Origin: Eubacterium sp.
Lineage (GTDB): Bacteria; Bacillota; Clostridia; Lachnospirales; Lachnospiraceae
Direction of reading: 5' to 3'
NCBI GenBank assembly: GCA_017433615.1
Contig: JAFRGW010000093.1
Span: 1 to 35,274 of the forward strand
DNA length: 35,274 nt
Part shown: piece after piece, positions 21,515-34,963 of the stretch
Layout of the letters: the number at the start of each line of letters is the position of its first letter
Position numbering within the stretch: the first letter of the stretch is position 1
Notes under the pieces: model-generated
The model's input: the letters and a program-made list of their open reading frames with translations, nothing else
Databases searched by the model: none
Told to the model about the DNA's origin: nothing
Translations under genes and position numbers: made by a program

Positions 21515-22894
21515 TTATTCTGCGCTGCCTTTTTTCTGTGCGATTTCTGCCACAATACCGTCAAAGGTCTTGTAGTCCAGCTTGTAGAACATGAATGTGA
21601 TACCCATGATCACGCAGATGATTCCCGGAATCAGGAACATCAGGTAAGTAACGCCGTTCTGAACTGCTGCAGTCTGTGTCGGCAGATCCGGGTTGTACTG
21701 CAGGACGGAGAGCAGTGCTGCAACGCCTGCTGTACTGAGCGCCATACCGACCTTCTGGAAGAAGGAGGCATACGCTGCGAGGAAGCTCTCATTTCTGTAA
21801 CCATTCTGCCACTCGCCGTATTCGACGACGTCCGGAAGCATACCGTATGCGGCAGCTGCCTGCGTGCCGTTAAAGAAACCTGTGATGATTGAAAGCGGCC
21901 AGAAGATAACCGGATTATGAACCGGACTGATAAAGGTGCAAACGATCAGCAGGATGCCGAATATGATTGCCGAATATCCGTAGTTCTTACCTTTGTTCTT
22001 AAAATAGTTGGAAATATACGGGGACAGGAAGGATCCGAAAAGGAACGGAATATTGAGGGCCATTACATAGGTAGCCATCATCTTGTCCTGTCCGACGACA
22101 TATTTGAAATAATAAGCATAAGCCGCATTTCTTCCATAGTTTGTAACACCGACCAGGAAGAAAGAAAGCAGGATCAGACGGTACGGTTTATTCTTAAATG
22201 CGTCTTTTGCCTGTGTCAGGAAACTTTTCTTGACATCTGAAGGCGGCGGCGCGACTACTTCCTTCGTACCAAAGAAACAGATCGCAAAACACGGCCATCC
22301 GATCAGTACGGTCATAACAAATGCAGTCATGACATACCCGCGGGCATCATTTCCGTTTCCGAATACCGGAACGAAGTAGTTAATAATATAAGTAACAATG
22401 ATTGCTGTCAGGAAAGAGAAAGTCATACGGAATCCGCCGAGAGAACCTCTTTCCTTCGGATCCTGTGTCAGGGTTGCTGCAAGCGCGGTGTACGGAATAT
22501 TAACACCGGTATAAAAGAATACCAGGAATCCATATGTGACATACATGTATGCCAGCTTTGCGCCGCTGGACCAGTCCGGATGTGCCCAGAATGTCAGAAC
22601 CGTGAAAATTGCCATCGGCACTGCCATAAACAGCCACGGACGATAACGTCCCCATTTCGTTCTGGTTCTGTCAGACATAATTCCGATCATCGGATCGTTG
22701 ATCGCGTCCCAGAGACGGCTGATCAGCATCAGCACGGAGACAGAAGCTGCTGAAATTTTGAACACGTCTGTGTAGAAAATCATCAGGAATGAACTGGTCA
22801 GCGCCCAGCTGAAGTTACATCCCATGTCGCCAAATGCAAAGGCAATCTTGCGCCATGGTCCGAGTTTAATATACGTTGACTGATTGTTGTTCAT
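21515..22894 (-). CDS. Glycoside-pentoside-hexuronide (GPH):cation symporter
   Basis: A 459-residue, 12-helix carrier. The family signature is clear: ISRLWDAINDPMIGIMSDRTRTKWGRYRPWL (read as DAINDPMIG, then DRTRTKWGRYRPWL), with the cation-site Asp residues in the second helix, and IPYTALAATLTQDPKERGSL. Relatives (MelB, XynB/XylP, UidB, YicJ) import disaccharides, xylosides or glucuronides with H+ or Na+. AAGGGGG precedes the ATG. It is the last gene of the catabolic operon, 21 bases after the polyol dehydrogenase, and is the presumed uptake system for the substrate of this locus. The substrate itself is not readable. Confidence 0.92.
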   Translation of the reverse strand: MNNNQSTYIKLGPWRKIAFAFGDMGCNFSWALTSSFLMIFYTDVFKISAASVSVLMLISRLWDAINDPMIGIMSDRTRTKWGRYRPWLFMAVPMAIFTVLTFWAHPDWSSGAKLAYMYVTYGFLVFFYTGVNIPYTALAATLTQDPKERGSLGGFRMTFSFLTAIIVTYIINYFVPVFGNGNDARGYVMTAFVMTVLIGWPCFAICFFGTKEVVAPPPSDVKKSFLTQAKDAFKNKPYRLILLSFFLVGVTNYGRNAAYAYYFKYVVGQDKMMATYVMALNIPFLFGSFLSPYISNYFKNKGKNYGYSAIIFGILLIVCTFISPVHNPVIFWPLSIITGFFNGTQAAAAYGMLPDVVEYGEWQNGYRNESFLAAYASFFQKVGMALSTAGVAALLSVLQYNPDLPTQTAAVQNGVTYLMFLIPGIICVIMGITFMFYKLDYKTFDGIVAEIAQKKGSAE

Positions 22895-22915
22895 AGTACC
22901 CCCTTCATTTACCTG

Positions 22916-23944
22916 TTATGCAAATTTAAACATTACCTTGGCAGCTTTTCCGCTCATCATAGTATCGAATGCTTCCTGGAACTGCTCCGGTTCGAAAATT
23001 GCCTTTACATAGTCGTCCAGATCCAGTTTATCGAAGAATGCGACGGAACGCGGGAACATATACGGTGACTGGAATACGGTCTGCAGGGTAATTTCTCTCT
23101 CCCACATATCCAGCAGATCTACTTCGAATTTATAATCCCCGTAAATTGCAAACAGCTCAACCATCGCGCCTCTGGATGCGATCTTGTATGCCGGAAGAAC
23201 CGCATGCCGGGAACCGGATGTCTCGATAACGACATCATAGCCGAGGTTTTCTGTGATCTCTGCTGCTCTTGCGATCGTATCCTCAGACATCGGATCAATC
23301 GTATAATCCGCGCCGAGGCGCATTGCCATTTCACGCTTCTCAGCGACCGGCTCAATCATTGTCAGCTTTGTTGCGCCGGAGAGACGCGCCATCTGCAGGA
23401 ACAGGAGGCCTACGCCGCCGCCGCCGGAAATCGCGACTTTATCGCCCGGACGGATCTTTGCGAGATCGATGCCGTGCAGTACCACGCTGATCGGCTCAAT
23501 GATGCAGGCTTTTGCGAGATCGACATCGTCTTTCAGCTTAAAGACCTGCTGCTGATCCAGTACCAGATATTCCGTCATTGCAGAATCCTGCGTCTTCATA
23601 TTCAGGCAGAAGTTTTCCTGGCCGTTCCGGCAGAAATAGCAGCTTCCGCAGTGCTGGTTATAGTAAAATGTAACCTTGTCGCCTACCTTAAAGCCTTTTG
23701 CATTTTCACCTTCAGCGACTTCGACGATTTCGCCGGAAGCCTCATGACCGATGACAATCGGCTGACCCGGCTTAAAGCCGAGTTCCTGGAAGTGTCCGTC
23801 CGCTTCGCCTTTAACCGTGTGGATATCAGATCCGCAGATCGACGCATAGTGAACTTTCACCTTTACCTGGCCTTCGCTGGTAATCTGCGGTTCCGGAATA
23901 TCAATCAGCTTGATCCCTGGCATTGTGTAAGCAATCGCTTTCAT
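22916..23944 (-). CDS. Zinc-dependent medium-chain alcohol/polyol dehydrogenase
   Basis: A 342-residue NAD(P)-dependent dehydrogenase of the sorbitol/threonine/butanediol dehydrogenase type, oxidising a secondary alcohol to a ketone or the reverse. Catalytic zinc ligands are visible in ICGSDIH, IGHEASG and the Glu of IEPISVVLHG. The structural zinc lobe CGSCYFCRNGQENFC is complete with four Cys. The Rossmann turn is SGGGGVGLL, and the acidic residue at the end of the second strand (TMIEP) suggests NAD. AGGAGG lies 10 bases before the ATG. It sits between an oxidoreductase gene (118-base gap) and the GPH symporter gene. A polyol-to-ketose step is likely, the exact substrate unknown. Confidence 0.92.
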   Translation of the reverse strand: MKAIAYTMPGIKLIDIPEPQITSEGQVKVKVHYASICGSDIHTVKGEADGHFQELGFKPGQPIVIGHEASGEIVEVAEGENAKGFKVGDKVTFYYNQHCGSCYFCRNGQENFCLNMKTQDSAMTEYLVLDQQQVFKLKDDVDLAKACIIEPISVVLHGIDLAKIRPGDKVAISGGGGVGLLFLQMARLSGATKLTMIEPVAEKREMAMRLGADYTIDPMSEDTIARAAEITENLGYDVVIETSGSRHAVLPAYKIASRGAMVELFAIYGDYKFEVDLLDMWEREITLQTVFQSPYMFPRSVAFFDKLDLDDYVKAIFEPEQFQEAFDTMMSGKAAKVMFKFA

Positions 23945-24062
23945 AACAAAACTACCTCCTCTTCCTGGTTGTTATTTATTTTTATGGGAATCTGCTTCCC
24001 ACAGCTTCCAATCCGGTATTGTTTATAATAGTTATTGTTCAGAACGCCCCGCTGCCGTTCTT

Positions 24063-26027
24063 TCACAGAATCCGTGACTCCATCGTCAGAACTGCATCGT
24101 ATGCTGTCCTTGTCGCATTGCGGATATTGGCGACGCCGCCGGCATCTCCGATCACATAGGTATTGACGGGATCTTTTTCCATCAGCGTCTCTGCAAGTTT
24201 GTTCTCCGGTTTCAGCCCCAGCGCAATAATCACATCGTCACAGAAAATCTCCTCACGTCTGCCGTCATGCTCGACGACCACCTTGCCTTCAGCAAATTCC
24301 ATGATTTTACTGCTGCCCTGCAGCTTAACGCCGGATAACTCCACCTCTTTAAAGAGCGACTCATATGCAAACATAAACAGGTTTGCACAGAATGCTTCTG
24401 TCGGGATCATGTCAATGACTGTAACCTCATGGCCTCTTCTCGCAAAATCAACTGCAGATTCTACGCCTGAGAGCCCACCGCCGCAGATCACGATCTTTTT
24501 CCCGAGGGTTGTTTCTTCTGTTTCCGCATTCTTCAGCATATGCACATGCGGCAGATCAATTCCGGTAATCGGCGGTTTCAGATAGGATGATCCTGTTGCT
24601 ACAAATACAGCATCTGCCCCGATTGAATTCAACAGTTCTTCTGTCGCCTCTGTATTCATCAGGATCTCTGCCCCGGACCGCTCTGTCATGCGGATCATAT
24701 AATCCCGGTAACTGCGCATCAGCCATTTAAACGACACAGCGCCCGCATCATTTAATTTGCCGCCAAGCCGGTCACTTTTTTCGATCAGCACAACTTCATG
24801 CCCACGGCCGGTAAGCGTCTGCACCGCCTGCATGCCGGCCGGACCGGAACCGATCACAGCCACTTTTTTCTTCTGCACCGGCGGCTGAAGCAGTCTCGCT
24901 TCCGTCTCCATTCCCATTTCCGGATTCACCGCACATCTTGCCGGAAGTCCGTGGAAAATTTTTCCGCAGCCGTCCATACACTTCAGACATGGACGGACTT
25001 CATCGGATTTTCCGCATGCCGCTTTGATGAACAACTTCGGATCCGCCAGCGGTGACCGTGCAAAACCGATTACATCGGCATTTCCACTCTCCAGAATCTG
25101 CTCTGCATCTTCGAGATTCCAGATATTTCCCACGCAGGTCACCGGAATCTGCAGCCGCTTCTTCAGACGTCCGCATGCTGCTTCGTTGATGCGATGCTCC
25201 ATCATATACATCGGAGAGGTGTACATCCTCCCGTCCTTGTGAAAACAGTTGCCACGGGAGACGTGTGCCAGATCAATATATGGCTCTGCCGCCTCAAAAA
25301 AGCGGAAGCACTCCTCTTCTGTAATACCGCCTTCAATCATATCTGCCACACTGGCACGCAGTTCAATCGGTACATCTTCCCCGATGGCTTCACGCACCGC
25401 ACGGATCAGCTCCAGCGGGAACCGCATGCGGTTCTCCAGAGAACCGCCGTATTCATCCGTGCGGTGGTTGGTCAAGGGGGATAACCATGTTGACAAATAG
25501 GCATTATGGCCGCCATGGATGAAAATCATATCAAATCCGGCCTTCAGAACACGCTTTGACACAGCGACCTGTCTCTGAATCAGCCAGTCCATATCTTCTC
25601 TTGTCATCCTTGTACAGGAAGCTGCTTCCAGTGAAGGGACCGGAATTTCCTCCGTCATGCCCGCAGATCCTTCAATATCCTTTGCGGACTGCAGATCCCC
25701 TCTGCCGGAATGTGAGAGTTCGTAAGCCAGCTTCGCGCCATACTTATGAACCTCGTCAGCCAGGAGCGACAGGCCCGGGATGAACCGGTCATGTGTTGTC
25801 TCCAGGTCGGCAAATTCACTGAGCTTCCGGTTGGTGTCGGTAATGCACCCCAGCACGATCATTCCTGCACCTGTGCGCGCCTGCATGCGGATGAAATTAA
25901 TCATATCCTGCGTCACGCCGCCGTCACCATCCGCCAGACACGGAACAAACGGGGTCAGCTCAATCCTGTTCTTAATTATGAGTTTTCGCAGTTTCAGCGG
26001 CCGAAAAACATGTTTAAATGAATTCAT
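24063..26027 (-). CDS. FMN/4Fe-4S/FAD oxidoreductase of the 2-enoate / 2,4-dienoyl-CoA reductase family (copy 1)
   Basis: The 654 residues have the three-part layout of this family. An old-yellow-enzyme TIM barrel binding FMN covers about 1-340 (FIHGGHNAYLSTWLSP then TNHRTDEYGGSLENR). A 4Fe-4S motif CLKCMDGCGKIFHGLPARC starts near 346. The FAD Rossmann fold begins KVAVIGSGPAGMQA near 388, and the NAD(P) fold KIVICGGGLSGVESA is near 512. Such enzymes move hydride from NAD(P)H to a C=C bond next to a carbonyl. The tyrosine usually placed in HGxxGYL is displaced here (HGGHNAYL). The N-terminus LTPFVPCLADGDG is unlike the usual SPM start. AGGAG precedes the ATG; the paralogous gene lies 18 bases upstream. 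The substrate is unknown. Confidence 0.9.
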   Translation of the reverse strand: MNSFKHVFRPLKLRKLIIKNRIELTPFVPCLADGDGGVTQDMINFIRMQARTGAGMIVLGCITDTNRKLSEFADLETTHDRFIPGLSLLADEVHKYGAKLAYELSHSGRGDLQSAKDIEGSAGMTEEIPVPSLEAASCTRMTREDMDWLIQRQVAVSKRVLKAGFDMIFIHGGHNAYLSTWLSPLTNHRTDEYGGSLENRMRFPLELIRAVREAIGEDVPIELRASVADMIEGGITEEECFRFFEAAEPYIDLAHVSRGNCFHKDGRMYTSPMYMMEHRINEAACGRLKKRLQIPVTCVGNIWNLEDAEQILESGNADVIGFARSPLADPKLFIKAACGKSDEVRPCLKCMDGCGKIFHGLPARCAVNPEMGMETEARLLQPPVQKKKVAVIGSGPAGMQAVQTLTGRGHEVVLIEKSDRLGGKLNDAGAVSFKWLMRSYRDYMIRMTERSGAEILMNTEATEELLNSIGADAVFVATGSSYLKPPITGIDLPHVHMLKNAETEETTLGKKIVICGGGLSGVESAVDFARRGHEVTVIDMIPTEAFCANLFMFAYESLFKEVELSGVKLQGSSKIMEFAEGKVVVEHDGRREEIFCDDVIIALGLKPENKLAETLMEKDPVNTYVIGDAGGVANIRNATRTAYDAVLTMESRIL

Positions 26028-26045
26028 TCGTCTGCTCCTGTATCT

Positions 26046-28004
26046 TTAAAGGGAAAACGCTTCCATTGCCAGAACCGCATCATATGCCGTCCGTGTCGCA
26101 TTCCGGATGTTTTTAACTTCAGAAGCGTCTCCAATGATAAATGTCCGGAACGGCTCCTTTTCATACAATCTGTCTCCGAGAGACCGGTCTGCCTTCAGAC
26201 CGAGGGCGATGATGGTGTTGTCACACGGAATCAGTTCTTCAGCTCCGTCGTGATCAACCAGAACACCCCCTTCTGTGAATCGCAGGATCTTCCGGTCACC
26301 GAGCAGCTCCATATCTGTCTTTTTCACTTCGTGGAACAGCGCTTCATACGCAAAGTCAAACAGACTATTGCAGAACATCTCCCGCGGAATCATATCAAGG
26401 ACGGTCACTTTTTTACCCGACTTGGCGAGATCAACGCCGAGTTCCACACCTGAGAGACCGCCGCCGCAGATGACGATCCGCTCTCCGAGCGCCTGCCGGT
26501 CTGCCTCTGCTTCCCGCAGCATCAGGACATTCGGATTGTCTATACCGGGGATCGGCGGCTTCAGGAAATCCGCTCCGGTTGCCACAAACACAGCATCCGG
26601 CTTCAATTCATTCACCAGCATTTCTGTTGCTTCTGTATTCAGGCGGATTTCGGCACCGCAGCGTTCTGTCGCGCGGATCATATAGTCTGTGTAATCCCGC
26701 ATCAATCCTTTAAAGGATACGCAGCCGGCGTCATGAAGCTTTCCGCCCAGACGGTCACTCTTTTCACAGAGCAATACTTCATATCCTCTCGCTGTCAGTG
26801 ACTGTGCAGCCTGCATGCCGGCGGGACCGCCCCCGATTACCAGTACTTTTTTCCTGTCAGCTGCAGGCTGCAGAAGTCTCGCCTCTGTTTCGTACCCCAG
26901 TTCCGGATTGACTGCACATCTTGCCGGCAGTCCGTGGAAGATTCTTCCGCATCCGTCCATACACTTCAGGCAGGGGCGCACGTCATCTTCTCTTCCGGCA
27001 GCTGATTTCCACACCATTTGCGGATCTGCCAGAAGGGATCTGCAGAAGCCGACCACATCGGCCTGGCCGCCGGCAATAATATCTTCTGCGTCCTGCAAGG
27101 TCCAGATATTTCCGACCACTGCGACCGGCATGTTCAGCACCTGCTTTGCCCGCTCCGAATATTTCACATTCTGCTTATGCTCCATTGTGTACATCGGGGA
27201 CGTACATACTCTGGAGTTCTCATGGAACACATTTCCCATAGAGAAGTGTGCCATATCCACAACATCTTCCAGTTCTTTGAGGAAGGTCAGACATTCCTCC
27301 ATCGTCGCGCCATTGGGTGTGCGCTCTTCCGCAGAAACACGCATCTCGATCGGCACATCCGGACCGATTGCCTCACGCAGCGCCCGCGCCACTTCAAGCG
27401 GATAACGCAGTCTGTTTTCAAGACTTCCGCCATATTCATCAGTACGGTGATTTGTTTCCGGCGACATAAACGCCCCCATCAGGTTGTTATGCCCGACGTG
27501 CATAAAAATCTCGTCAAATCCCGCTTTCAGCGCGCGGAGGCTGGTTTTGATGAATTCTTCTTTGACCCAGTCCATATCCTCGCGCGTCATGATATTGCAC
27601 ACAGATTCCAGCGGCGGAATATCATTTTCCTCCCCGTTTTCCTCCAGAACCAGCGGACCCATAGACGGCATCCATCCTCTTCCGGAGTGACATACCTCAT
27701 ACGAAATCTTCGCGCCGTACTTATGTGCTTCATCCGCCGCAAGAGACAAACCGGAGACAAACCGGTCCTCCAGAAAATCCAGGTCTGCATGACAGCACAT
27801 ACGGCGGTCCGGATCAATAATCGAACCCATAATCAGATTCGATGCGCCGGTCCGCGCCTGCATCCGGATAAAATTGATCATATCCGGCTGCGGATAGCCC
27901 TGTGAATCGACCAGGCAGGGGACAAACGGCGTGAAAATGATTCTGTTTTTTAATGTCATTTTGCGCAGCCTGAGCGGCTGGAATACATGACTGTAACGAT
28001 TCAT
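26046..28004 (-). CDS. FMN/4Fe-4S/FAD oxidoreductase of the 2-enoate / 2,4-dienoyl-CoA reductase family (copy 2)
   Basis: A 652-residue paralogue of the next gene, alike along its whole length: N-terminus IFTPFVPCLVDSQG, MHVGHNNLMGAFMSP with TNHRTDEYGGSLENR, the cluster motif CLKCMDGCGRIFHGLPARC near 345, FAD site KVLVIGGGPAGMQA and NAD site RIVICGGGLSGVELG. The divergence is greatest in the barrel, so the two copies probably differ in substrate or form a heteromer. At the site of the usual catalytic Tyr this copy has Asn-Leu and no Tyr nearby. AGGAG lies 8 bases before the ATG. It follows the transketolase C subunit gene by 41 bases in the same operon. Tandem duplication within the locus is the simplest origin. 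Confidence 0.9.
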   Translation of the reverse strand: MNRYSHVFQPLRLRKMTLKNRIIFTPFVPCLVDSQGYPQPDMINFIRMQARTGASNLIMGSIIDPDRRMCCHADLDFLEDRFVSGLSLAADEAHKYGAKISYEVCHSGRGWMPSMGPLVLEENGEENDIPPLESVCNIMTREDMDWVKEEFIKTSLRALKAGFDEIFMHVGHNNLMGAFMSPETNHRTDEYGGSLENRLRYPLEVARALREAIGPDVPIEMRVSAEERTPNGATMEECLTFLKELEDVVDMAHFSMGNVFHENSRVCTSPMYTMEHKQNVKYSERAKQVLNMPVAVVGNIWTLQDAEDIIAGGQADVVGFCRSLLADPQMVWKSAAGREDDVRPCLKCMDGCGRIFHGLPARCAVNPELGYETEARLLQPAADRKKVLVIGGGPAGMQAAQSLTARGYEVLLCEKSDRLGGKLHDAGCVSFKGLMRDYTDYMIRATERCGAEIRLNTEATEMLVNELKPDAVFVATGADFLKPPIPGIDNPNVLMLREAEADRQALGERIVICGGGLSGVELGVDLAKSGKKVTVLDMIPREMFCNSLFDFAYEALFHEVKKTDMELLGDRKILRFTEGGVLVDHDGAEELIPCDNTIIALGLKADRSLGDRLYEKEPFRTFIIGDASEVKNIRNATRTAYDAVLAMEAFSL

Positions 28005-28045
28005 GTCTCTTCTCCTGTTGTTCCCGGCACCCCGGTAAACTATCT

Positions 28046-29002
28046 TTATACAAGCATTTCCTTCACTGCTTTAACGAGTGCTTCCGCATCGTATCCGTAT
28101 TTATGCTGCAGTTCTGCACCGGAACCGAATCCTGCATAAACCTGCGGAATGCCCATTCTGCGGAATTTCTCCGGCATTGTGCAGTGGTCGGTATATACAT
28201 CTGAGATTGCGGATGCGAGTCCGCCCGTCATCAGGTGATCCTCAAGTACGATGACTTTTCCCGTCTTCTCTGAAAGGCTGAGCACCAGTTCCTCGTCGAT
28301 CGGTTTGATCGAATACATATCAGCGATTGTGATCTCGATGCCTTCCTTTTCCAGCTCAACAGCTGCATCCATTGCTTCGCCGACCATCTCGCCGTGCGCA
28401 AAAACGGTAAGGTCTTTTCCCTCACGGACTACAAGACCTTTTCCGATCTTATAGTGGACCTGTTCTGCATCATAGATGACACGGTCCTTCTTGCCCTGCG
28501 CCAGGCGGATGTACATCGGTCCGTCCCATGTCATGGACTGTTCCAGAAGCTGCGGGATCATATTCGGATCCGCCACGGAAATCACGGTCATGTTTACGAG
28601 TGAACGCATGATGGAGATATCCTCCATCGCATTGTGGGTTGATCCGCCGCCGGAGGTGAGGCCGCCGCCTGTTCCGATCAGGCGGACCGGCAGATTCTGA
28701 TAGCAGATTGCCGTACGTACCTGCTCGCACGCGCGCATGGTCATAAACGGGATCATTCCTGTTACAAAACAGATATTGCCTGCAAGTGCAAGGCCCGCCG
28801 CTGTGCCCATAACGTTCTGCTCTGCGATGCCGACATCAACAAAACGGTCTGCATGATCTTTCTTATACGGTCCCAGAAAACCGCCCGTGTCAGCCGTCAG
28901 TACCCATACGTTGTCGAAACGGGATGCAAGCTCCTCGAGCTTTCTTCCGGTATTATCACGTCCTGATGCAAAAATCGCGTCGAAATTGAACGAAACCTTC
29001 AT
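28046..29002 (-). CDS. Transketolase-like protein, C-terminal subunit
   Basis: A 318-residue pyrimidine-binding half of a split transketolase. RFVDVGIAEQNVMGTAAGLAL carries the conserved catalytic Glu that activates thiamine diphosphate, then FVTGMIPFMTMRACEQVRTAI, a GGGLTSGGGSTHNAMEDISIMR stretch that lines the active site, and a C-terminal domain from about 190 (LTVFAHGEMVGEAMDAA). The start at 29002 uses AAGGAGG; its A is the last base of the upstream stop (TAATG), a sign of tight coupling with the N-subunit gene. With that subunit it should transfer a two-carbon ketol unit between a ketose and an aldose. The pair in a catabolic operon, rather than in the pentose phosphate set, suggests a dedicated substrate. 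Confidence 0.92.
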   Translation of the reverse strand: MKVSFNFDAIFASGRDNTGRKLEELASRFDNVWVLTADTGGFLGPYKKDHADRFVDVGIAEQNVMGTAAGLALAGNICFVTGMIPFMTMRACEQVRTAICYQNLPVRLIGTGGGLTSGGGSTHNAMEDISIMRSLVNMTVISVADPNMIPQLLEQSMTWDGPMYIRLAQGKKDRVIYDAEQVHYKIGKGLVVREGKDLTVFAHGEMVGEAMDAAVELEKEGIEITIADMYSIKPIDEELVLSLSEKTGKVIVLEDHLMTGGLASAISDVYTDHCTMPEKFRRMGIPQVYAGFGSGAELQHKYGYDAEALVKAVKEMLV

Positions 29003-29871
29003 TATGTCATTTCCTCCTTCTCTGCATTCCATGCAGCTTCTACGTCAGCAAGCGCGCGCTCCATATCCTCTGTTCCCAGCGTTCCGGAATGCCATCCCAG
29101 AGACCGCTCCATGAAGGAAACGCCTTTTCCTTTCAGGGTGTTGCACACGATCATGGTCGGCTTATCTCCGGACGGATCCGGAATTGCGTCCAGCGCATTT
29201 ACGATCTGTTCCATATCATTTCCGTCTTCGACTTCAATGACATTCCATCCGAATGCACGCCATTTATCTGCGTATGGATCCATCGACATATATTTATCTT
29301 CTGTATAGAACGTCATGGTCTGATGATTGCGGTCAACCAGTCCGACGATATTCCCAAGCTTGTAGGAACTGCTGAGCATTGCTGCCTCCCAGACAGAACC
29401 TTCGCCAGTCTCGCCGTCGCCCATCAGGCAGAATACGCGGTAGTTTTCACCCTTGCTCTTTGCGTGAATTGCGAGGCCGTTCGCCATGGCAAGTCCCTGG
29501 CCGAGGGAGCCGGAAGAGCACTCCAGCGCCGGAAGCTGTACGCGGCACGGATGCATGCCGAATTTGGAATCCAGCTTGCCATATGTAGAGATGATTTCGT
29601 CATAATCAAAGAATCCGCGCAGCGACATCGCGATGTACATTGCGAGGGCACCGTGTCCCTTTGACATGATAAAGCGGTCTCTCTCGGGCCATGCCAGATC
29701 CTCCGGATTGCATTTGATCTTATAATTCCAGAGTGCCACGAGCATCTCGGTCATCGAAAGGTCACCGCCGATATGTACCGAGCCACTGTAGGAGCCGCAG
29801 AACTTCAGCAGCTTCATCCGCATCTCGTATGCCAGTTCTTTTAAAGAAAAAATCTCCTTTGTTGTAGCCAT
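29002..29871 (-). CDS. Transketolase-like protein, N-terminal subunit
   Basis: A 289-residue thiamine-diphosphate-binding half of a split transketolase, first gene of the catabolic operon. Visible motifs are HIGGDLSMTEMLVALW, FIMSKGHGALAMY, GSLGQGLAMANGLAI and the thiamine-diphosphate motif GDGETGEGSVWEAAMLSS (GDG followed by the Mg2+ ligands), then VDRNHQTM. The start at 29871 lies behind AGGAGG; an in-frame extension to 29976 runs into promoter DNA and is not used. It overlaps the C-subunit gene by one base. The AraC regulator gene is divergent, which suggests induction by the substrate of the locus. Confidence 0.92.
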   Translation of the reverse strand: MATTKEIFSLKELAYEMRMKLLKFCGSYSGSVHIGGDLSMTEMLVALWNYKIKCNPEDLAWPERDRFIMSKGHGALAMYIAMSLRGFFDYDEIISTYGKLDSKFGMHPCRVQLPALECSSGSLGQGLAMANGLAIHAKSKGENYRVFCLMGDGETGEGSVWEAAMLSSSYKLGNIVGLVDRNHQTMTFYTEDKYMSMDPYADKWRAFGWNVIEVEDGNDMEQIVNALDAIPDPSGDKPTMIVCNTLKGKGVSFMERSLGWHSGTLGTEDMERALADVEAAWNAEKEEMT

Positions 29872-29927
29872 TGAACAGTTCCTCCTATTTTGTTTTTGGT
29901 TCCGGCTGTTTGAAACACTTGGTTGTA

Positions 29928-29956
29928 TTGACAACTTTTTTTGCAAATGCAATAAT
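29928..29956 (+). promoter_or_regulatory. Promoter of the AraC-type regulator, with an embedded TTGCA-N2-TGCAA dyad
   Basis: TTGACA (29928-29933) and AATAAT (29951-29956) are 17 bases apart on the plus strand. The dyad TTGCA-AA-TGCAA (29941-29952) lies between and over these elements, and a TTGCA half-like copy is repeated nearby (ACTGCAAAT, about 29961-29969). It is placed between the two divergent transcripts (29872-30102, 231 bases), so it could be an operator for autoregulation and for the catabolic operon. Confidence 0.5.
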
Positions 29957-30011
29957 AAATCAACTGCAAATTTCACAAATTTAATAGAGTATTTTTATTA
30001 TTTTCCTATAT

Positions 30012-30024
30012 TTTATACATGTAT
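30012..30024 (-). promoter_or_regulatory. Candidate -10 region for the catabolic operon, with a 10-base palindrome
   Basis: On the minus strand TATAAA (30017-30012) overlaps the palindrome ATACATGTAT (30015-30024). No convincing -35 is seen, as expected for a promoter that needs an AraC-type activator. The predicted leader of about 130 bases before the transketolase start would include the dyad at 29941-29952. Confidence 0.3.
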
Positions 30025-30102
30025 CCGGTCTGCGTCTTTACCATCCCATGACATTTGACATGCATTCTATGGCAGATTTTTGTAGTTTTGCAGGAGGCCG
30101 CT

Positions 30103-31017
30103 ATGGATCCAAACCCGAATATTCAATATCTCTGCTCCTACGTCACAGAATTTTCCTGGCTGACTGCAGATATTTCTATTTTGAATTTTGCTTCTATGGG
30201 AGACTTTCTGATCAATCTTCCGCACGAACACCCCTTCCGGGAGCTTCTTTATCTGGAGTCCGGCACGCTGCAGGTTCAGATCTGCGGTGATACATTTGAA
30301 ATGCAAAAAGGAGATCTGCTGTATATTAACAGTCAGATCCCCCATATTGTTTCATCTGCGGGAGATGATCCTCCCATCACTTATAACACCTCGTTTTTGC
30401 TTTCACACCGCGCAAATATTGAAAAGATTCCTTCCGCGTGGACAGATGATGAAACAAGTCTCATCCGTCCGCTGCTGGATCAGGATTATCTCTATGCGCA
30501 TGACACAGCCGCCTGCGGCGAACAGATTCAGGCAATCAAGGAAGCGATTGCGCTTCACCGGCGCGGAGATTTTGTACGTGTCCGGAATCACATTTCCAAC
30601 CTGTTCATCGGCGCGCTGCAGTCTTTTACAAGATTAGCACCGGATCCGCGCTATCATGAGACCATTACCGGAGAATACTCCTATAACGCCTCGAAGATAC
30701 TCCTGTATCTGCACGAACATTTCACCGAGGGACTGACACTGGCTTCTGTAGCAGAGGCACTCCACTACTCACCGCGGCAGTGCCAGCGCCTGATCCAGGA
30801 ATCCATGGGCATCAGCTTCTCGGAGCTGCTGCAGGATCTGCAGCTTTCCTATGCCAAGACCCTGCTCCGCACAACCGACGAAAGCCTCGAAACTGTCAGT
30901 GAGCGTTCCGGCTTCAGCAACAGCAGAAATTTCTATCACCATTTTAAGCAGCATGAGAGTGTATCTCCCTCCCAGTACCGGAAGCTTTACAGGCTGCGGA
31001 ACTGTACTGAGGCGTAA
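30103..31017 (+). CDS. AraC-family transcriptional regulator with cupin sensor domain
   Basis: A 304-residue regulator. The N-terminal half is a cupin-like sugar-sensing domain (HEHPFRELLYLESGTLQVQI, then GDLLYINSQIPHIV). The C-terminal 100 residues (about 205-300) hold two helix-turn-helix units, with LTLASVAEALHYSPRQCQRLIQ (first HTH) and ETVSERSGFSNSRNFYHHFKQ (second HTH), and end PSQYRKLYRLR. The start at 30103 sits five bases after AGGAGG; an in-frame ATG at 30055 has no such site. It is divergent from the transketolase operon and convergent with two dehydrogenase genes, so it is the likely activator of the locus. The effector is unknown. Confidence 0.92.
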   Translation: MDPNPNIQYLCSYVTEFSWLTADISILNFASMGDFLINLPHEHPFRELLYLESGTLQVQICGDTFEMQKGDLLYINSQIPHIVSSAGDDPPITYNTSFLLSHRANIEKIPSAWTDDETSLIRPLLDQDYLYAHDTAACGEQIQAIKEAIALHRRGDFVRVRNHISNLFIGALQSFTRLAPDPRYHETITGEYSYNASKILLYLHEHFTEGLTLASVAEALHYSPRQCQRLIQESMGISFSELLQDLQLSYAKTLLRTTDESLETVSERSGFSNSRNFYHHFKQHESVSPSQYRKLYRLRNCTEA

Positions 31018-31025
31018 GCACTCAT

Positions 31026-32126
31026 TCAACACGGAGCTGCCGCATTCAGCTGCAGGACCGCCTTGATACATTTTCCGCTGCCGGAATCGGCAAACGCCTC
31101 ATTTATTTCCTCAAACGGATAGGTTTTGATCAAACGGTCGACCGGGAAGCGTCCCTGCCGGTAAGCCTCGATCAGCTGCGGAATAAACTGCTGCGGATTG
31201 GAGTCTCCCTCGCTGACCCCCTTAATCGTGCGGGCACAGAGATCAAATGAACCCAGCGTCAGCTGAAAACCGCCGCCGGCAATTGCGATGGAGCCGGTAA
31301 AGGTAAGACTGTTTAAGAGAGAAGCTATCATCCGTCCGTTTCCGGATGTATCAACTGCATAATCCACCCCGCCGCCGGCCGTCTGCATGATTGCTTCGGT
31401 CAGATCCTCCACTTCTTTCCGGTTGATGGTATGCGTTGCGCCGAGTTCTTTTGCCAGCTCCAGGCTTGCCGGATTTCCGCCCACTGCGATGATTTTCGCA
31501 CAGCCACAGAGTTTGCCGGCCATGATCGCGCACATGCCGACCGTTCCGCACCCTCCTACAACCAGCGAGGAGCCGAATTCCGGTTTCAGCGAATTCAGAA
31601 CAATTCCTGCGCCGGTCTGGACGCCGCATCCAAATGGCGCCGCAACGGCAAAATCGATATCCTCAGGAATATGTACGGCACTTCTCTGGCTTACAAGGGC
31701 ATATCCGGCAAAGGAAGACTGCGAGAAAAATGAGCTCACCTTTTCTCCCTGCCACATAATCCTGTGCGCACCATCCGGATAGACCCCGAAAAAGTTAATT
31801 TCATTCATTCGTTCACAGGCATAGGGACGGCCCGCGATGCAGGCCTTACAGGTTCCGCAGCTCGCATAGGTCAGACAGACTGCATCCCCTTCCTGAAATC
31901 CGGTTACCCCTGCGCCGACTTTTTCTACGATTCCCGCACCCTCATGTCCAAGCACTGCCGGAAATGAGAACGGAAGCACACCGCTGCGTCCGGCTTCATC
32001 TGTGTGGCATACACCCGCCGCCTCAATCCGCACCAGAATTTCGTCTGCTTTCGGCTCAGCGAGTTCAACCTCTGTAAATTCAAACGGTGTTTCTTTTTCT
32101 TTCGTAATTGCTGCTCTGATCTTCAT
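31026..32126 (-). CDS. Zinc-dependent class III-like alcohol dehydrogenase
   Basis: The 366-residue protein is a medium-chain dehydrogenase of the aryl/benzyl alcohol dehydrogenase or class III type. Catalytic zinc ligands are in GVCHTDEAG, LGHEGAG and the Cys of FGCGVQTGAGIVLNSL. The structural zinc lobe CGTCKACIAGRPYAC has four Cys. The Rossmann turn is VGGCGTVGM. The second strand ends IAVGGNPASLELA, with Gly-Gly where an Asp usually selects NAD. AAGGAG lies upstream. It follows another dehydrogenase gene by 15 bases, so the pair are co-transcribed. Its stop is 8 bases from that of the convergent AraC gene. An alcohol or aldehyde of the locus is the likely substrate. Confidence 0.9.
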   Translation of the reverse strand: MKIRAAITKEKETPFEFTEVELAEPKADEILVRIEAAGVCHTDEAGRSGVLPFSFPAVLGHEGAGIVEKVGAGVTGFQEGDAVCLTYASCGTCKACIAGRPYACERMNEINFFGVYPDGAHRIMWQGEKVSSFFSQSSFAGYALVSQRSAVHIPEDIDFAVAAPFGCGVQTGAGIVLNSLKPEFGSSLVVGGCGTVGMCAIMAGKLCGCAKIIAVGGNPASLELAKELGATHTINRKEVEDLTEAIMQTAGGGVDYAVDTSGNGRMIASLLNSLTFTGSIAIAGGGFQLTLGSFDLCARTIKGVSEGDSNPQQFIPQLIEAYRQGRFPVDRLIKTYPFEEINEAFADSGSGKCIKAVLQLNAAAPC

Positions 32127-32141
32127 AGTCCCTCTCCTTTT

Positions 32142-33194
32142 TTAGAATGTAACAATCCCCTTGATGTAATCCGGTTCCGGATGTGCCAGCATTTCAAACG
32201 CTGCCTGAATCTGCTCAAATTTGAATTCATGTGAAATCAATTCGTCGCATGGCAGACGTCCGTCCATGTAGGACGCAATTCCCTCCAGCATATTGTCGCG
32301 CGGCCGCGGCGCAATTGTCGGATGTGTCGCAATCAGCGCAGGCGTCCGCTGCATCAGGTTAAATGCCAGGCTCTTCGGGAAAATTTCCTCCCGGCTGTAG
32401 ACAGAAGGGATCAACACTTTTCCGACGCCCCGGAATGTCCCGTCAAACTGCGCCATACCGCCCACATGCGGTTCGCGAATGATTTTGCAGGCCGTATCGA
32501 GGCCCTTCAGAGAACCTGTGATCTCAACAACAACATCAAAGAACCGCCCGTCCGTCATTTCCCAGGCAAGATCATCAATTTCTCCTTGCCGCGGATTCAG
32601 AACATGTGTGGCGCCATATTTTTTTGCCAGCTCCAGCTTATTATCCAGAAGATCGATCGCTGTCAGTTTCTTCGCGCCGCTTTTCCGAAGCCCGGCGATA
32701 ACCATCAGACCCATAAAGCCGCAGCCGACCACGGCAATATTCTCCCCGTACTGGCATGTGGCTTCCTTTACGATATTAACGATACAGCCGAGCGGCTCTG
32801 CACAGCAGTATTTTACAGGTTTGTCTCCGACGGGAATTTCGCAGAATGAGCGGTTATCATCTTTCATCACAATATATTCCCGGAAACCGCCGCCGAATCC
32901 GCCGACATATTCACCGACATGAAAATTCCGGACAGCTTTACCCACTTCTATAACTTCTGCGATTGGTTCATGTCCGACATCCATCGGAAATGACGGTTCT
33001 CCGACGCCGAGCCGCTCGAATCCGTATTTTGAAACGGAGATCCCCATCACGCCCAGAAATGCCGGAAGATCCGTATGGCACATTCCGACAGAAATCGTTT
33101 TCAGCAATACCTCATCGTCTGCAAGCGGCGGTAGTTCTTCATCAAATAGTTCCACCCGCATCGGCCCGACAACCATCGCTTTTCTATATTTCAT
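32142..33194 (-). CDS. Medium-chain dehydrogenase without structural zinc lobe
   Basis: A 350-residue zinc-binding alcohol dehydrogenase-like protein. Catalytic zinc candidates are Cys of GMCHTDLPAFLG, His of VGHEPIAEV and Glu/Cys of AEPLGCIVNIV. The four-Cys structural zinc loop is absent: the expected stretch reads GEYVGGFGGGFREYIV. The cofactor fold is AVVGCGFMGLMVIAGLRKSG with Asp after the second strand (TAIDLLDNKLELA), suggesting NAD. The start at 33194 lies seven bases after AAGGGG; a GTG six bases earlier is in frame. It is the upstream gene of the dehydrogenase pair and is separated from the isomerase-like gene by a terminator. Relatives include polyol, glucose and 2-deoxy-scyllo-inosamine type dehydrogenases; substrate unknown. 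Confidence 0.88.
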   Translation of the reverse strand: MKYRKAMVVGPMRVELFDEELPPLADDEVLLKTISVGMCHTDLPAFLGVMGISVSKYGFERLGVGEPSFPMDVGHEPIAEVIEVGKAVRNFHVGEYVGGFGGGFREYIVMKDDNRSFCEIPVGDKPVKYCCAEPLGCIVNIVKEATCQYGENIAVVGCGFMGLMVIAGLRKSGAKKLTAIDLLDNKLELAKKYGATHVLNPRQGEIDDLAWEMTDGRFFDVVVEITGSLKGLDTACKIIREPHVGGMAQFDGTFRGVGKVLIPSVYSREEIFPKSLAFNLMQRTPALIATHPTIAPRPRDNMLEGIASYMDGRLPCDELISHEFKFEQIQAAFEMLAHPEPDYIKGIVTF

Positions 33195-33269
33195 CGACAC
33201 ACCCCTTTCTGTAAAACCCGGTTACATTTCCAAATACATCTTTTCCTGCAGTTTTACTATATAAAAAGA

Positions 33270-33319
33270 GCCGGAGACACACTACGTAAAATCAGGACAA
33301 TTTTACGGTTGTCTCCGGC
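33270..33319 (-). terminator. Two-stem intrinsic terminator after the isomerase-like gene
   Basis: GCCGGAGACA (33270-33279) pairs perfectly with TGTCTCCGGC (33310-33319), and GTAAAAT (33286-33292) pairs with ATTTTAC (33300-33306) inside it. On the minus strand it ends GGCTCTTTTTATATAG, so it terminates the isomerase-like gene before the dehydrogenase pair. The remaining 33320-33472 segment shows no gene or other clear element. Confidence 0.8.
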
Positions 33320-33472
33320 ATAATTTTGTGGTTATGTCAGTATTTATTTCGTTTGCTGTGCTTTGGCGCCATCTGCAGAGGTGTGGCTTCTCCACCCGGG
33401 TTCAGTTCCGCCCCTGCGACAATCCTGCCGCGCATCACCTATCGTGTCGGGGCATCTCCCACTGAGATATCA

Positions 33473-34963
33473 TTATGCCCACGGATTCTCAGTCGGATAC
33501 CGCACGCCTGCCGGCTGGTTATAGCCGATCTCCTCGACCGGTACGCCGATGTATTTAAAAGTTTCAAACAGCGCTTTACCGTATTTTCCGAATGCCACTG
33601 CGCCGTGATGCGGATAGTTCTTCTCGATCAGAACGTGGCGGTAAAATCTTCCCATCTCTTTGATCGCGAAGACGCCGATTGCGCCAAAGGAGCAGCTCGG
33701 AACCGGCAGAACCTCGCCTTCTGCGATGTATGCGCGCAGCTTACAGTCCGCCGTGCTCTGCAGACGGTAGAATGTAATTTCACCCGGAACGATATCGCCC
33801 TCGAGTGTGCCGTTGGTCACTTCTTCCGGAAGTGAGCGGGCCATGATCTTCTGGTTGCGCATCTCATGGAAAGACAGGCGCTGTGAGCAGGTGTTGCCGC
33901 AGTGGAAGCCCATGAAGGTATCCGTATGTTTGTAAGGGAATTTTCCTTCAATCTTGTCGTGGTACATGTCCTTCGGAACAGAATTGTTGATGTCCAGCAG
34001 GGTAACGATGTCCTGGCTGATAACCGTTCCGATATATTCGCTGAGCGTTCCGTAAATATCAACCTCACAGGAAACCGGAATGCCGCGGCCGGTGAGAATG
34101 CTGTTGATATAGCACGGCACGAATCCGAACATCGTCTGGAATGCCGGCCAGCACTTGGTGGTGACCGCCACAAATTCTCTGTAGCCTTTGTGCTCTTCGA
34201 TCCAGTCAGTCAGCGTGAGTTCGTACTGCGCCAGCTTCGGCAGAATCTGCGGCTTCTTATTGCCCTCGCCCAGCTCCGTTTCCATTTCTTTGATCACTCC
34301 CGGGATGCGCGGATCATCTGCATGCTTCAGAAATGCCTCATACAGATCCAGTTCGGAATTCTCCTCGATCTCAACGCCCAGATTGTACAGCTGCTGGATC
34401 GGCGCATTACAGGCCAGGAAGTTGTTCGGACGCGGTCCGAAGCTGATAATCTTCAGATGTTCAATTCCATAGACCGCACGCGCGATCGGCAGGAAGTCGT
34501 GGATCATGTCCGCGCAGTCCTCTGCATCGCCGACCGGATACTCCGGAATATAAGCCTTCACGCCGCGGATTTTCAGGTTGTAGCTTGCATTCAGCATGCC
34601 GCAGTACGCATCGCCGCGGCCGTCCATCAGATCGCCCTGACTCTCCTCAGCCGCCGCACAGAACATCTTCGGACCGTCAAAATGCTTCGCCAGCAGCGTC
34701 TCTGAAATCTCCGGTCCGAAATTGCCGAGATAGACACACAGCGCATTGCAGCCCGCCGCTTTCACATCCTTCAACGCATTGACCATATCAATTTCACTTT
34801 CGATAATCGTCACCGGACACTCATAGATGTCCTCTGCGCCGTACTTCTTCGTATACGCCTCGATCAGGGCTTTTCTTCGGTTCTCCGCCAGAGACGCCGG
34901 GAAGCAGTCCCTGCTCACCGCCACAACACCGATCTTGATACTTGGGATATTATTCAGCTGCAT
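33473..34963 (-). CDS. L-fucose / L-arabinose isomerase family protein
   Basis: A 496-residue protein similar to the broad group related to L-fucose isomerase. Typical features are IKIGVVAVSRDCFP at the N-terminus, an NFGPEI segment (about 105), SCEVDIYGTLSEYI, which carries the acidic metal ligands, TLLDINNS, and FMGFHCGNTCSQ. The enzyme would interconvert an aldose and a ketose with Mn2+. The length is shorter than E. coli FucI (about 590) and near that of AraA (about 500). The start at 34963 lies behind AAGGAG. It forms its own transcription unit upstream of the dehydrogenase pair. Whether it acts on the substrate of this locus is inferred only from position. Its substrate could also be a sulfonated or deoxy sugar, since related isomerases act on such sugars. 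Confidence 0.85.
   Translation of the reverse strand: MQLNNIPSIKIGVVAVSRDCFPASLAENRRKALIEAYTKKYGAEDIYECPVTIIESEIDMVNALKDVKAAGCNALCVYLGNFGPEISETLLAKHFDGPKMFCAAAEESQGDLMDGRGDAYCGMLNASYNLKIRGVKAYIPEYPVGDAEDCADMIHDFLPIARAVYGIEHLKIISFGPRPNNFLACNAPIQQLYNLGVEIEENSELDLYEAFLKHADDPRIPGVIKEMETELGEGNKKPQILPKLAQYELTLTDWIEEHKGYREFVAVTTKCWPAFQTMFGFVPCYINSILTGRGIPVSCEVDIYGTLSEYIGTVISQDIVTLLDINNSVPKDMYHDKIEGKFPYKHTDTFMGFHCGNTCSQRLSFHEMRNQKIMARSLPEEVTNGTLEGDIVPGEITFYRLQSTADCKLRAYIAEGEVLPVPSCSFGAIGVFAIKEMGRFYRHVLIEKNYPHHGAVAFGKYGKALFETFKYIGVPVEEIGYNQPAGVRYPTENPWA

Follow-up and report, generated by a model that had tools for sequence, protein, structure and literature searches.

We propose, with moderate confidence, that eight genes at positions 21515–32126 of the window, the whole 35,274-nucleotide stretch analysed here (G000:C59:1-35274), form a desmolase-like catabolic module that removes a two-carbon ketol unit from a bulky, unphosphorylated substrate and also reduces conjugated double bonds in it. 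The source, a Eubacterium sp. genome, spans 2.97 Mb in 173 contigs, with a completeness of 94.3% and a contamination of 6.9%. The reading draws on gene content, conservation and residue replacements, all of which were observed directly. The closest known gene set, which the first-pass annotation of this DNA did not name, is desABCD of Clostridium scindens ATCC 35704, which encodes the transketolase N (desA) and C (desB) subunits, a Zn dehydrogenase described as a 20-alpha-hydroxysteroid dehydrogenase (desC) and a Na+/melibiose-type symporter (desD) (PMC3735941, PMC5408610). It is reported to take the two-carbon ketol side chain off cortisol (PMC3735941, PMC5408610, PMC13348027); DesAB was proposed as the side-chain-cleaving desmolase in PMC3735941, a view adopted by later papers (PMC5408610, PMC12876203, PMC13348027). 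The product formed from cortisol is 11-beta-hydroxyandrostenedione. The operon is induced approximately 1000-fold by cortisol, desC is considered to derive from a threonine dehydrogenase, and transketolase and symporter genes are conserved around desC-like genes of other anaerobes (PMC3735941). The TktN–TktC–Zn dehydrogenase–GPH set of the window equals desABCD, and the top solved match of its dehydrogenase is 4OH1 (34% identity), the structure of DesC (PMC13348027), which is one reason for the desmolase-like reading.

The operon adds two likely ene-reductases of the Old Yellow Enzyme (OYE) type and a pocket changed where engineers altered transketolase for aromatic aldehydes. It offers a testable case for transketolase chemistry in gut clostridia that acts on ketols other than sugars, whether steroids or plant aromatics, and may bear on hormone metabolism and biocatalysis. 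To our knowledge, no substrate is known for transketolase and symporter sets around desC-like genes outside the steroid desmolases. We also found no published OYE-containing split-transketolase operon, and no natural transketolase with these replacements, in a search that most subscription papers fell outside.

In the proposed scheme, the GPH symporter would import a compound that carries no phosphate and ends in either a two-carbon ketol or a glycol, the DesC-like dehydrogenase (22916–23944) would oxidise the glycol to the ketol, and TktN/TktC would cut the two-carbon ketol unit from the substrate. Both OYEs would then reduce carbonyl-conjugated C=C bonds in the remaining residue, and the Zn alcohol dehydrogenase P7 would interconvert its aldehyde and alcohol, so that the OYEs and P7 would serve as electron sinks; the AraC-type regulator would control the operon. 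Substrate class, direction, acceptor, electron-sink role and regulation are the predicted parts of this scheme. A dedicated split transketolase with uptake, oxidation to a ketol and two-carbon transfer had already been suggested by the first-pass annotation, and that outline is supported. Family scans of each gene confirmed that all the genes it named are real:

21515–22894, minus strand: GPH (Na+/melibiose-type) symporter in the desD-like position (TIGR00792, 340 bits, above the cut-off of 231)
22916–23944, minus strand: threonine-dehydrogenase-like Zn dehydrogenase in the desC-like position (best solved match 4OH1, E 7e-59)
24063–26027, minus strand: OYE-b, a putative flavin mononucleotide (FMN)/4Fe-4S/flavin adenine dinucleotide (FAD) enzyme, paralogue of OYE-a (61% identical; Pfam; BaiCD 439 bits)
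26046–28004, minus strand: OYE-a, a putative BaiCD-type FMN/4Fe-4S/FAD oxidoreductase (Pfam; BaiCD 410 bits)
28046–29002, minus strand: TktC, C-terminal transketolase subunit in the desB-like position (Pfam Transket_pyr and Transketolase_C)
29002–29871, minus strand: TktN, N-terminal, thiamine diphosphate (ThDP)-binding transketolase subunit in the desA-like position (Pfam Transketolase_N; ATG start with AGGAGG upstream)
30103–31017, plus strand: AraC-type regulator, divergent from tktN and tail to tail with P7 (HTH_18 and cupin domains)
31026–32126, minus strand: P7, Zn alcohol dehydrogenase, benzyl/aryl-alcohol-dehydrogenase-like by its solved relatives (best solved matches 5TNX and 1F8F)
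32142–33200, minus strand: P8, divergent medium-chain dehydrogenase, 15 bp upstream of P7, its membership in the block being unproven
33473–34963, minus strand: Fucose_iso_C protein (PF02952), judged to lie outside the unit

The conserved block and its boundaries

The genes from tktN to the GPH gene are separated by gaps of −1, 41, 18, 118 and 21 bp and a ribosome-binding-site-like sequence precedes their starts, which suggests that they form one operon. The likely starts are 29871 for tktN, 29002 for tktC, 30103 for the AraC gene and 34963 for the isomerase-like gene. A scan for promoters and terminators was indecisive (18 promoter-like sequences against 15.4 expected and 19 terminator-like sequences against 15.1 expected), and comparing the AraC–tktN intergenic region of the window with that of locus L014 gave nothing decisive.

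L014 belongs to a Lachnospiraceae metagenome-assembled genome (MAG) of another genus in the same family (JAAWJI010000022.1, genome G1037; 22 kb of the locus compared), and it holds the eight genes P7, AraC, TktN, TktC, OYE-a, OYE-b, Zn dehydrogenase and GPH in identical order, the AraC gene again being divergent from tktN and tail to tail with P7. Identities are 74% for P7, 55% for AraC, 78% for TktN, 85% for TktC, 75% for OYE-a, 80% for OYE-b, 83% for the dehydrogenase and 78% for GPH. The order is also kept in a genome of the same genus (G001, locus L017), and a locus near-identical to the window (L013) is present in Eubacterium sp. isolate RGIG4369, a MAG from roe deer jejunum. This recurrence exceeds chance, and conservation of eight genes in order across two genera, at 55–85% identity, is a second reason for the desmolase-like reading.

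The first-pass annotation had drawn P8 and the fucose-isomerase-like protein into one joint locus with these genes. The eight genes do recur together in L014 and L017, but the 22 kb of L014 yielded neither P8 nor the isomerase-like gene; its genes on that side are SbcC-like and JetD (Wadjet) ones (L014:15-2325). The Fucose_iso_C gene has matches in 209 of the 348 family genomes sampled and lies on a different contig from the transketolase genes in three genomes with related operons (G003, G014 and G1037). As a widespread gene that is found on other contigs, it was rejected as a pathway member and is judged an unrelated neighbour. Its product is distantly SftI-like (66 bits against a cut-off of 700) and has no solved relative by sequence; relatives are 72–94% identical among the matches listed.

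Family scans of the block genes found no dehydratase, isomerase, kinase, aldolase, glycosidase or sulfonate gene, and the earlier remark that kinase and sulfonate genes are missing holds for the conserved block. The apulose-phosphate transketolase route has a kinase and an isomerase beside its split transketolase; the same scans found neither a kinase nor an RpiB-type gene in the block.

TktN relatives (E up to 1e-100) were located at 12 places, spread over 9 of the 397 family genomes searched. Those other than the window and L014 are 55–60% identical, and nine of these ten were viewed in longer stretches, the tenth being L018. No TktN relatives were found in viral contigs. The close pair of OYEs is rare, occurring only in the window's genome and G001 among 61 genomes. 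Wider samples, with three candidates scored per genome and the window's genome counted, gave OYE profile matches in 3 genomes out of 392 for the order (E up to 1e-130) and in 2 out of 391 for the class (E up to 1e-150). At L015 only the OYE part is present (70% identical) and none of the other block genes were found, and among 48 plasmid records every best place for OYE-a was below 60% identity (approximately 31–32% in the 8 listed).

At L041 (in the window's genome), L042 and L043, the nearest other P7-linked transketolase loci, a P7 relative (53–54%) is divergent from a tktN-tktC-GPH-dehydrogenase run. No OYE is present in these three loci, and the OYEs therefore seem to have been added to a core made up of P7, TktN, TktC, GPH and the dehydrogenase. 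L014's genome has a further locus, L077, which combines TktN (45%), TktC (36%), a DesC-like dehydrogenase, GPH (26%), AraC and P7 with a distant OYE (33–34% identical). Co-conservation of the flavoenzymes with the transketolase, which had been suggested as a check, is thus seen in L014 and again in L077, where the OYE is a distant one (33%), but fails in L041–L043.

The transketolase pocket

Pocket positions were read by sequence alignment to E. coli TktA (L040) and 6YAJ. TktN and TktC retain H66, H100, G114, D155, N185, H261, R358, E411, F437 and H473, which are ThDP-side or catalytic positions plus R358. On the predicted acceptor side, TktC has Phe for S385, Met for F434, Gly for H461 and Gln for R520, the position of D469, which we take to have a role in acceptor recognition, is a gap or Gly, and TktN has Gly at the R91 position. 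Tested as a canonical transketolase, the pair keeps the ThDP-side and catalytic residues and has lost S385, H461, D469 and R520. In known transketolases S385, H461 and R520 contact the phosphate (PMC5073344, PMC11659671), and in the E. coli enzyme D469 forms a salt bridge with R91 (PMC5073344). Because the ThDP side is kept but these other positions are replaced, the pocket argues against an ordinary sugar-phosphate route, and this combination of retained ThDP-side residues with changes at S385, F434, H461, D469, R520 and R91 is a third reason for the desmolase-like reading.

The salt-bridge partners go together in our alignment: Arg or Lys at position 91 occurs in 5 of 5 rows with Asp or Glu at 469 and in 0 of 16 rows without, 14 of these 16 being one clade and the independent events therefore few. 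Among the rows compared, F385 is found only in the window and L014. Within the clade, the pattern at positions 358/385/434/461/520 tends to track the neighbouring genes, with RFMGQ in the window and L014 (P7 and OYE), RNMGQ in L030, L032 and L037 (P7), RTMNR in L031 and L033 (aldehyde dehydrogenase, ALDH), RGMYP in four iron-containing alcohol dehydrogenase (Fe-ADH) loci (L008, L034, L035 and L038) and KGMYP in L036 (ALDH), whose open reading frame appears broken near its start. The basal P7-linked L073 (RSMHR) and L077 (KSFHR) retain S385, H461 and R520. Ordinary transketolases are described as RSFHR and sulfo-transketolases as RAFDR (PMC11659671). The sulfo-transketolase comparison made in the first pass does not survive, given that the head-group pattern is RFMGQ and that the block has no sulfonate-handling genes.

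The E. coli S385Y/D469T/R520Q enzyme is a laboratory variant evolved for benzaldehydes, in which Y385 stacks over ThDP and clashes with phosphate (PMC5073344). A more specific and rather doubtful extension of our reading is that the window's pocket converged naturally on this design. Gut bacteria would then cleave ketols that bear an aryl or enal group, such as aryl-glycerol-derived ketols of dietary plant origin, to give an aldehyde and a two-carbon unit, and the residue would serve ene-reductases and an aryl alcohol dehydrogenase as an electron sink.

The flavoenzymes and the alcohol dehydrogenase

Both OYEs carry an FMN domain, a CxxCxxxC...C motif and FAD/NAD domains. The best NCBIfam model of both is BaiCD (NF041087), at 439 and 410 bits against a cut-off of 825 that is not reached, followed by long-form bilirubin reductase (389 and 379 bits) and mycofactocin OYE (356 and 353 bits). 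OYE-b, the one of the two that was compared with solved structures, has as its best match NCR, which we take to be 2-naphthoyl-CoA reductase, followed by dienoyl-CoA reductase (DCR) and trimethylamine dehydrogenase (TMADH). Judged from sequence, both are likely ene-reductases, and the earlier view that C=C reductases fit a plain sugar poorly is supported. At the position of Tyr166 of E. coli DCR (numbering checked) OYE-a has Asn and OYE-b has Ala, and by this alignment their proton donor must differ from that of DCR.

As a special case of the desmolase-like reading, the block could be a true glucocorticoid pathway, a variant desABCD in which the side chain of a C21 steroid is removed and ring A is saturated by two BaiCD-type reductases. 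The desABCD gene set with two OYEs, BaiCD as the top model of both and the near-identical locus in roe deer jejunum would all fit. However, the BaiCD scores are approximately half the cut-off with bilirubin reductase close behind, identity to DesC is 34%, a 17-ketone product would leave P7 without an aldehyde, and the P7-linked sister loci L041–L043 lack OYEs. The gut steroid 5-beta-reductase clade of ci2350 is described with N166, Y167 and S171 (PMC12238238); placed through the DCR alignment, the window OYEs share the Asn at N166, but have Ala or Asn at Y167 and Thr or Ala at S171. We consider a glucocorticoid pathway quite unlikely.

The best solved matches of P7 are 5TNX (314 bits) and benzyl alcohol dehydrogenase 1F8F (296 bits; 43% identical over 356 residues). 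We infer the label 'aryl' from these solved relatives, because NCBIfam points elsewhere: P7 scores highest there against NDMA-dependent (254 bits) and class III (249 bits) alcohol dehydrogenases, without reaching the cut-off of either model. An N-demethylation of the TMADH type, in which a dihydroxyacetone-synthase-like transketolase would fix the formaldehyde, is not favoured, given that class III formaldehyde-type enzymes reach 209 bits in PDB against 296 for benzyl alcohol dehydrogenase, though class III is among the two best NCBIfam models.

A survey of 397 family genomes for P7 relatives (E up to 1e-90, with no more than five candidates scored in each genome) gave 20 places in 17 genomes, and 19 of the 20 were examined (G891:C14 was left out); several stretches are short or at contig ends, and absences are weak. 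A split transketolase is in the fetched locus in 7 of 19 (window, L014, L041–L043, L073 and L077, approximately 5–6 kb from the P7 relative in the last two), six of the 19 hold an OYE (the window, L014, L074, L075, L077 and, at a contig edge, L072), and six hold either an ALDH (L070 and L081) or a molybdenum-hydroxylase-type pair (L079, L080, L082 and L083). In G591, which belongs to another family, an OYE (50%) lies next to a P7 relative (54%), with a divergent LysR gene, and no transketolase was found in that stretch. That P7 relatives share loci with transketolase, OYE, ALDH and molybdenum hydroxylase genes, together with the OYE–P7 neighbours in G591, is a fourth reason for the desmolase-like reading. 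A chance estimate for P7–TktN adjacency (approximately 2.5e-11) ignores genome relatedness and is not used as a probability.

The same neighbourhoods bear on aldehyde and enal detoxification, in which P7 and the OYEs would reduce toxic aldehydes and enals and the transketolase would condense them with a ketol donor. Every step is reversible, the G591 pair has a DJ-1/PfpI gene approximately 2.5 kb from the OYE beside the divergent LysR, and MATE and DJ-1-type genes lie upstream in L041/L042. Yet the block has a dedicated symporter and AraC regulator, no stress gene was recognised in it and the polyol-type dehydrogenase would not be needed, all of which makes detoxification very improbable.

Other neighbours of P7 relatives include molybdenum-hydroxylase-type and Fer4_20 proteins at L079, L080, L082 and L083 (P7 relatives 45–48% identical; Pfam annotated one of the pairs and clustering the rest). 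At L075, L076 and L077 a URO-D family protein adjoins (L077 by Pfam, the others by clustering), possibly a corrinoid methyltransferase, and an O-demethylase idea arose from these neighbours.

Weighing the reading against known systems

Several observations weigh against the desmolase-like reading. Loss of D469/R91 is common to the 14-member split-transketolase clade, several loci of which hold sugar ABC transporters, Gfo/Idh and hydroxypyruvate-isomerase-like genes, and the loss therefore need not mean a bulky substrate. The change of three of the four phosphate-contact positions leaves use of a phosphorylated acceptor unexplained, and F434M drops an aromatic contact that the laboratory variant uses. 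At 34%, the dehydrogenase is no closer to DesC than the other transketolase-linked dehydrogenases fetched (32–38%, a set gathered around transketolases and P7 and thus biased). DCR Tyr166 is missing from both OYEs; six others (G591, L023, L024, L074, L075 and L077) also lack it, with Asn or Trp instead, and the loss is therefore not special to this operon. The NCBIfam placement of P7 belongs here too. Finally, four of the six other split transketolases in the window's genome have aldehyde-type or OYE genes nearby: an ALDH-like gene (29%) beside L007, a Zn dehydrogenase beside L005, a weak Fe-ADH (25%) approximately 2.5 kb from L003 and a short OYE beside L004, with none found near L001 and L002 using a limited query set. 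Aldehyde enzymes near split transketolases are therefore general. An aldehyde enzyme in the transketolase locus was tried as a mark of the clade (14 of 14 loci, approximately 5–6 kb off in L073 and L077) and set aside as weak, since 4 of the 6 controls have an aldehyde-type or OYE gene nearby too. The approximately 3 Mb genome (6.9% contamination) is rich in split transketolases, with ten Transketolase_N matches, nine of them strong.

The sugar-type neighbourhoods give some room to a modified-sugar or cyclitol pathway of the kind suggested in the first pass. Its substrate would be an unusual or dehydrated sugar, from which the dehydrogenases would make a ketose; the OYEs would reduce a dehydrated enone intermediate and the transketolase would move two carbons of an unphosphorylated ketose. 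L018, a close transketolase relative, lies with Gfo/Idh, hydroxypyruvate-isomerase-like, PfkB and aldolase genes, loci of other close relatives hold sugar ABC transporters, and GPH symporters usually carry glycosides. The window's genome also has a second transketolase–OYE cluster, L087 (G000:C57:1-19900), the locus of L004, with a short NamA-like OYE, EFR1 ferredoxin, an IolE-like dehydratase, a levoglucosan-dehydrogenase-like protein, a XylB-like kinase and GPH; by gene content, it looks like an anhydrosugar or cyclitol route. However, the L004 transketolase retains H461, D469 and R520 and its OYE is of the short type, the nearest named solved relative of P7 is benzyl alcohol dehydrogenase, and the dehydratase, isomerase, kinase, aldolase and glycosidase are all missing from the conserved block. 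We regard this pathway as possible, although on the unlikely side.

Among known systems, the split SqwGH sulfo-transketolase is described as removing two-carbon units from a ketose that carries no phosphate, the aldehyde that remains being either reduced or oxidised (PMC11659671), much as proposed here; the window differs in its RFMGQ pattern and in having no sulfonate gene or isomerase in the conserved block. With BaiCD and the gut steroid 5-beta-reductases, the window OYEs share the long FMN/4Fe-4S/FAD architecture, but they reach approximately half the curated score and have Ala or Asn at the catalytic Tyr position. P7 has the GHE and CxxCxxC-type Zn motifs of benzyl alcohol dehydrogenase 1F8F. 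The transketolase is replaced at the same three positions as S385Y/D469T/R520Q (Phe, deletion or Gly, and Gln), a likeness of sequence; unlike the variant, it is natural and additionally carries H461G, F434M and R91G.

The window differs from desABCD in that two OYE genes separate its desB-like gene from its desC-like gene, P7 lies beside the operon, and AraC stands where known desmolase operons are described with lysR (PMC5408610). Mean identity within desA is given as 78% (PMC12876203). Only DesC was compared by sequence, the DesA/DesB likeness being one of gene set, and the window thus has the desmolase-operon gene set and not proven orthology. The Zn dehydrogenase is predicted to interconvert the carbinol and the ketone of the ketol. 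What the two systems share is a split transketolase, a threonine-dehydrogenase-type Zn dehydrogenase and a Na+/melibiose-type symporter in one gene run.

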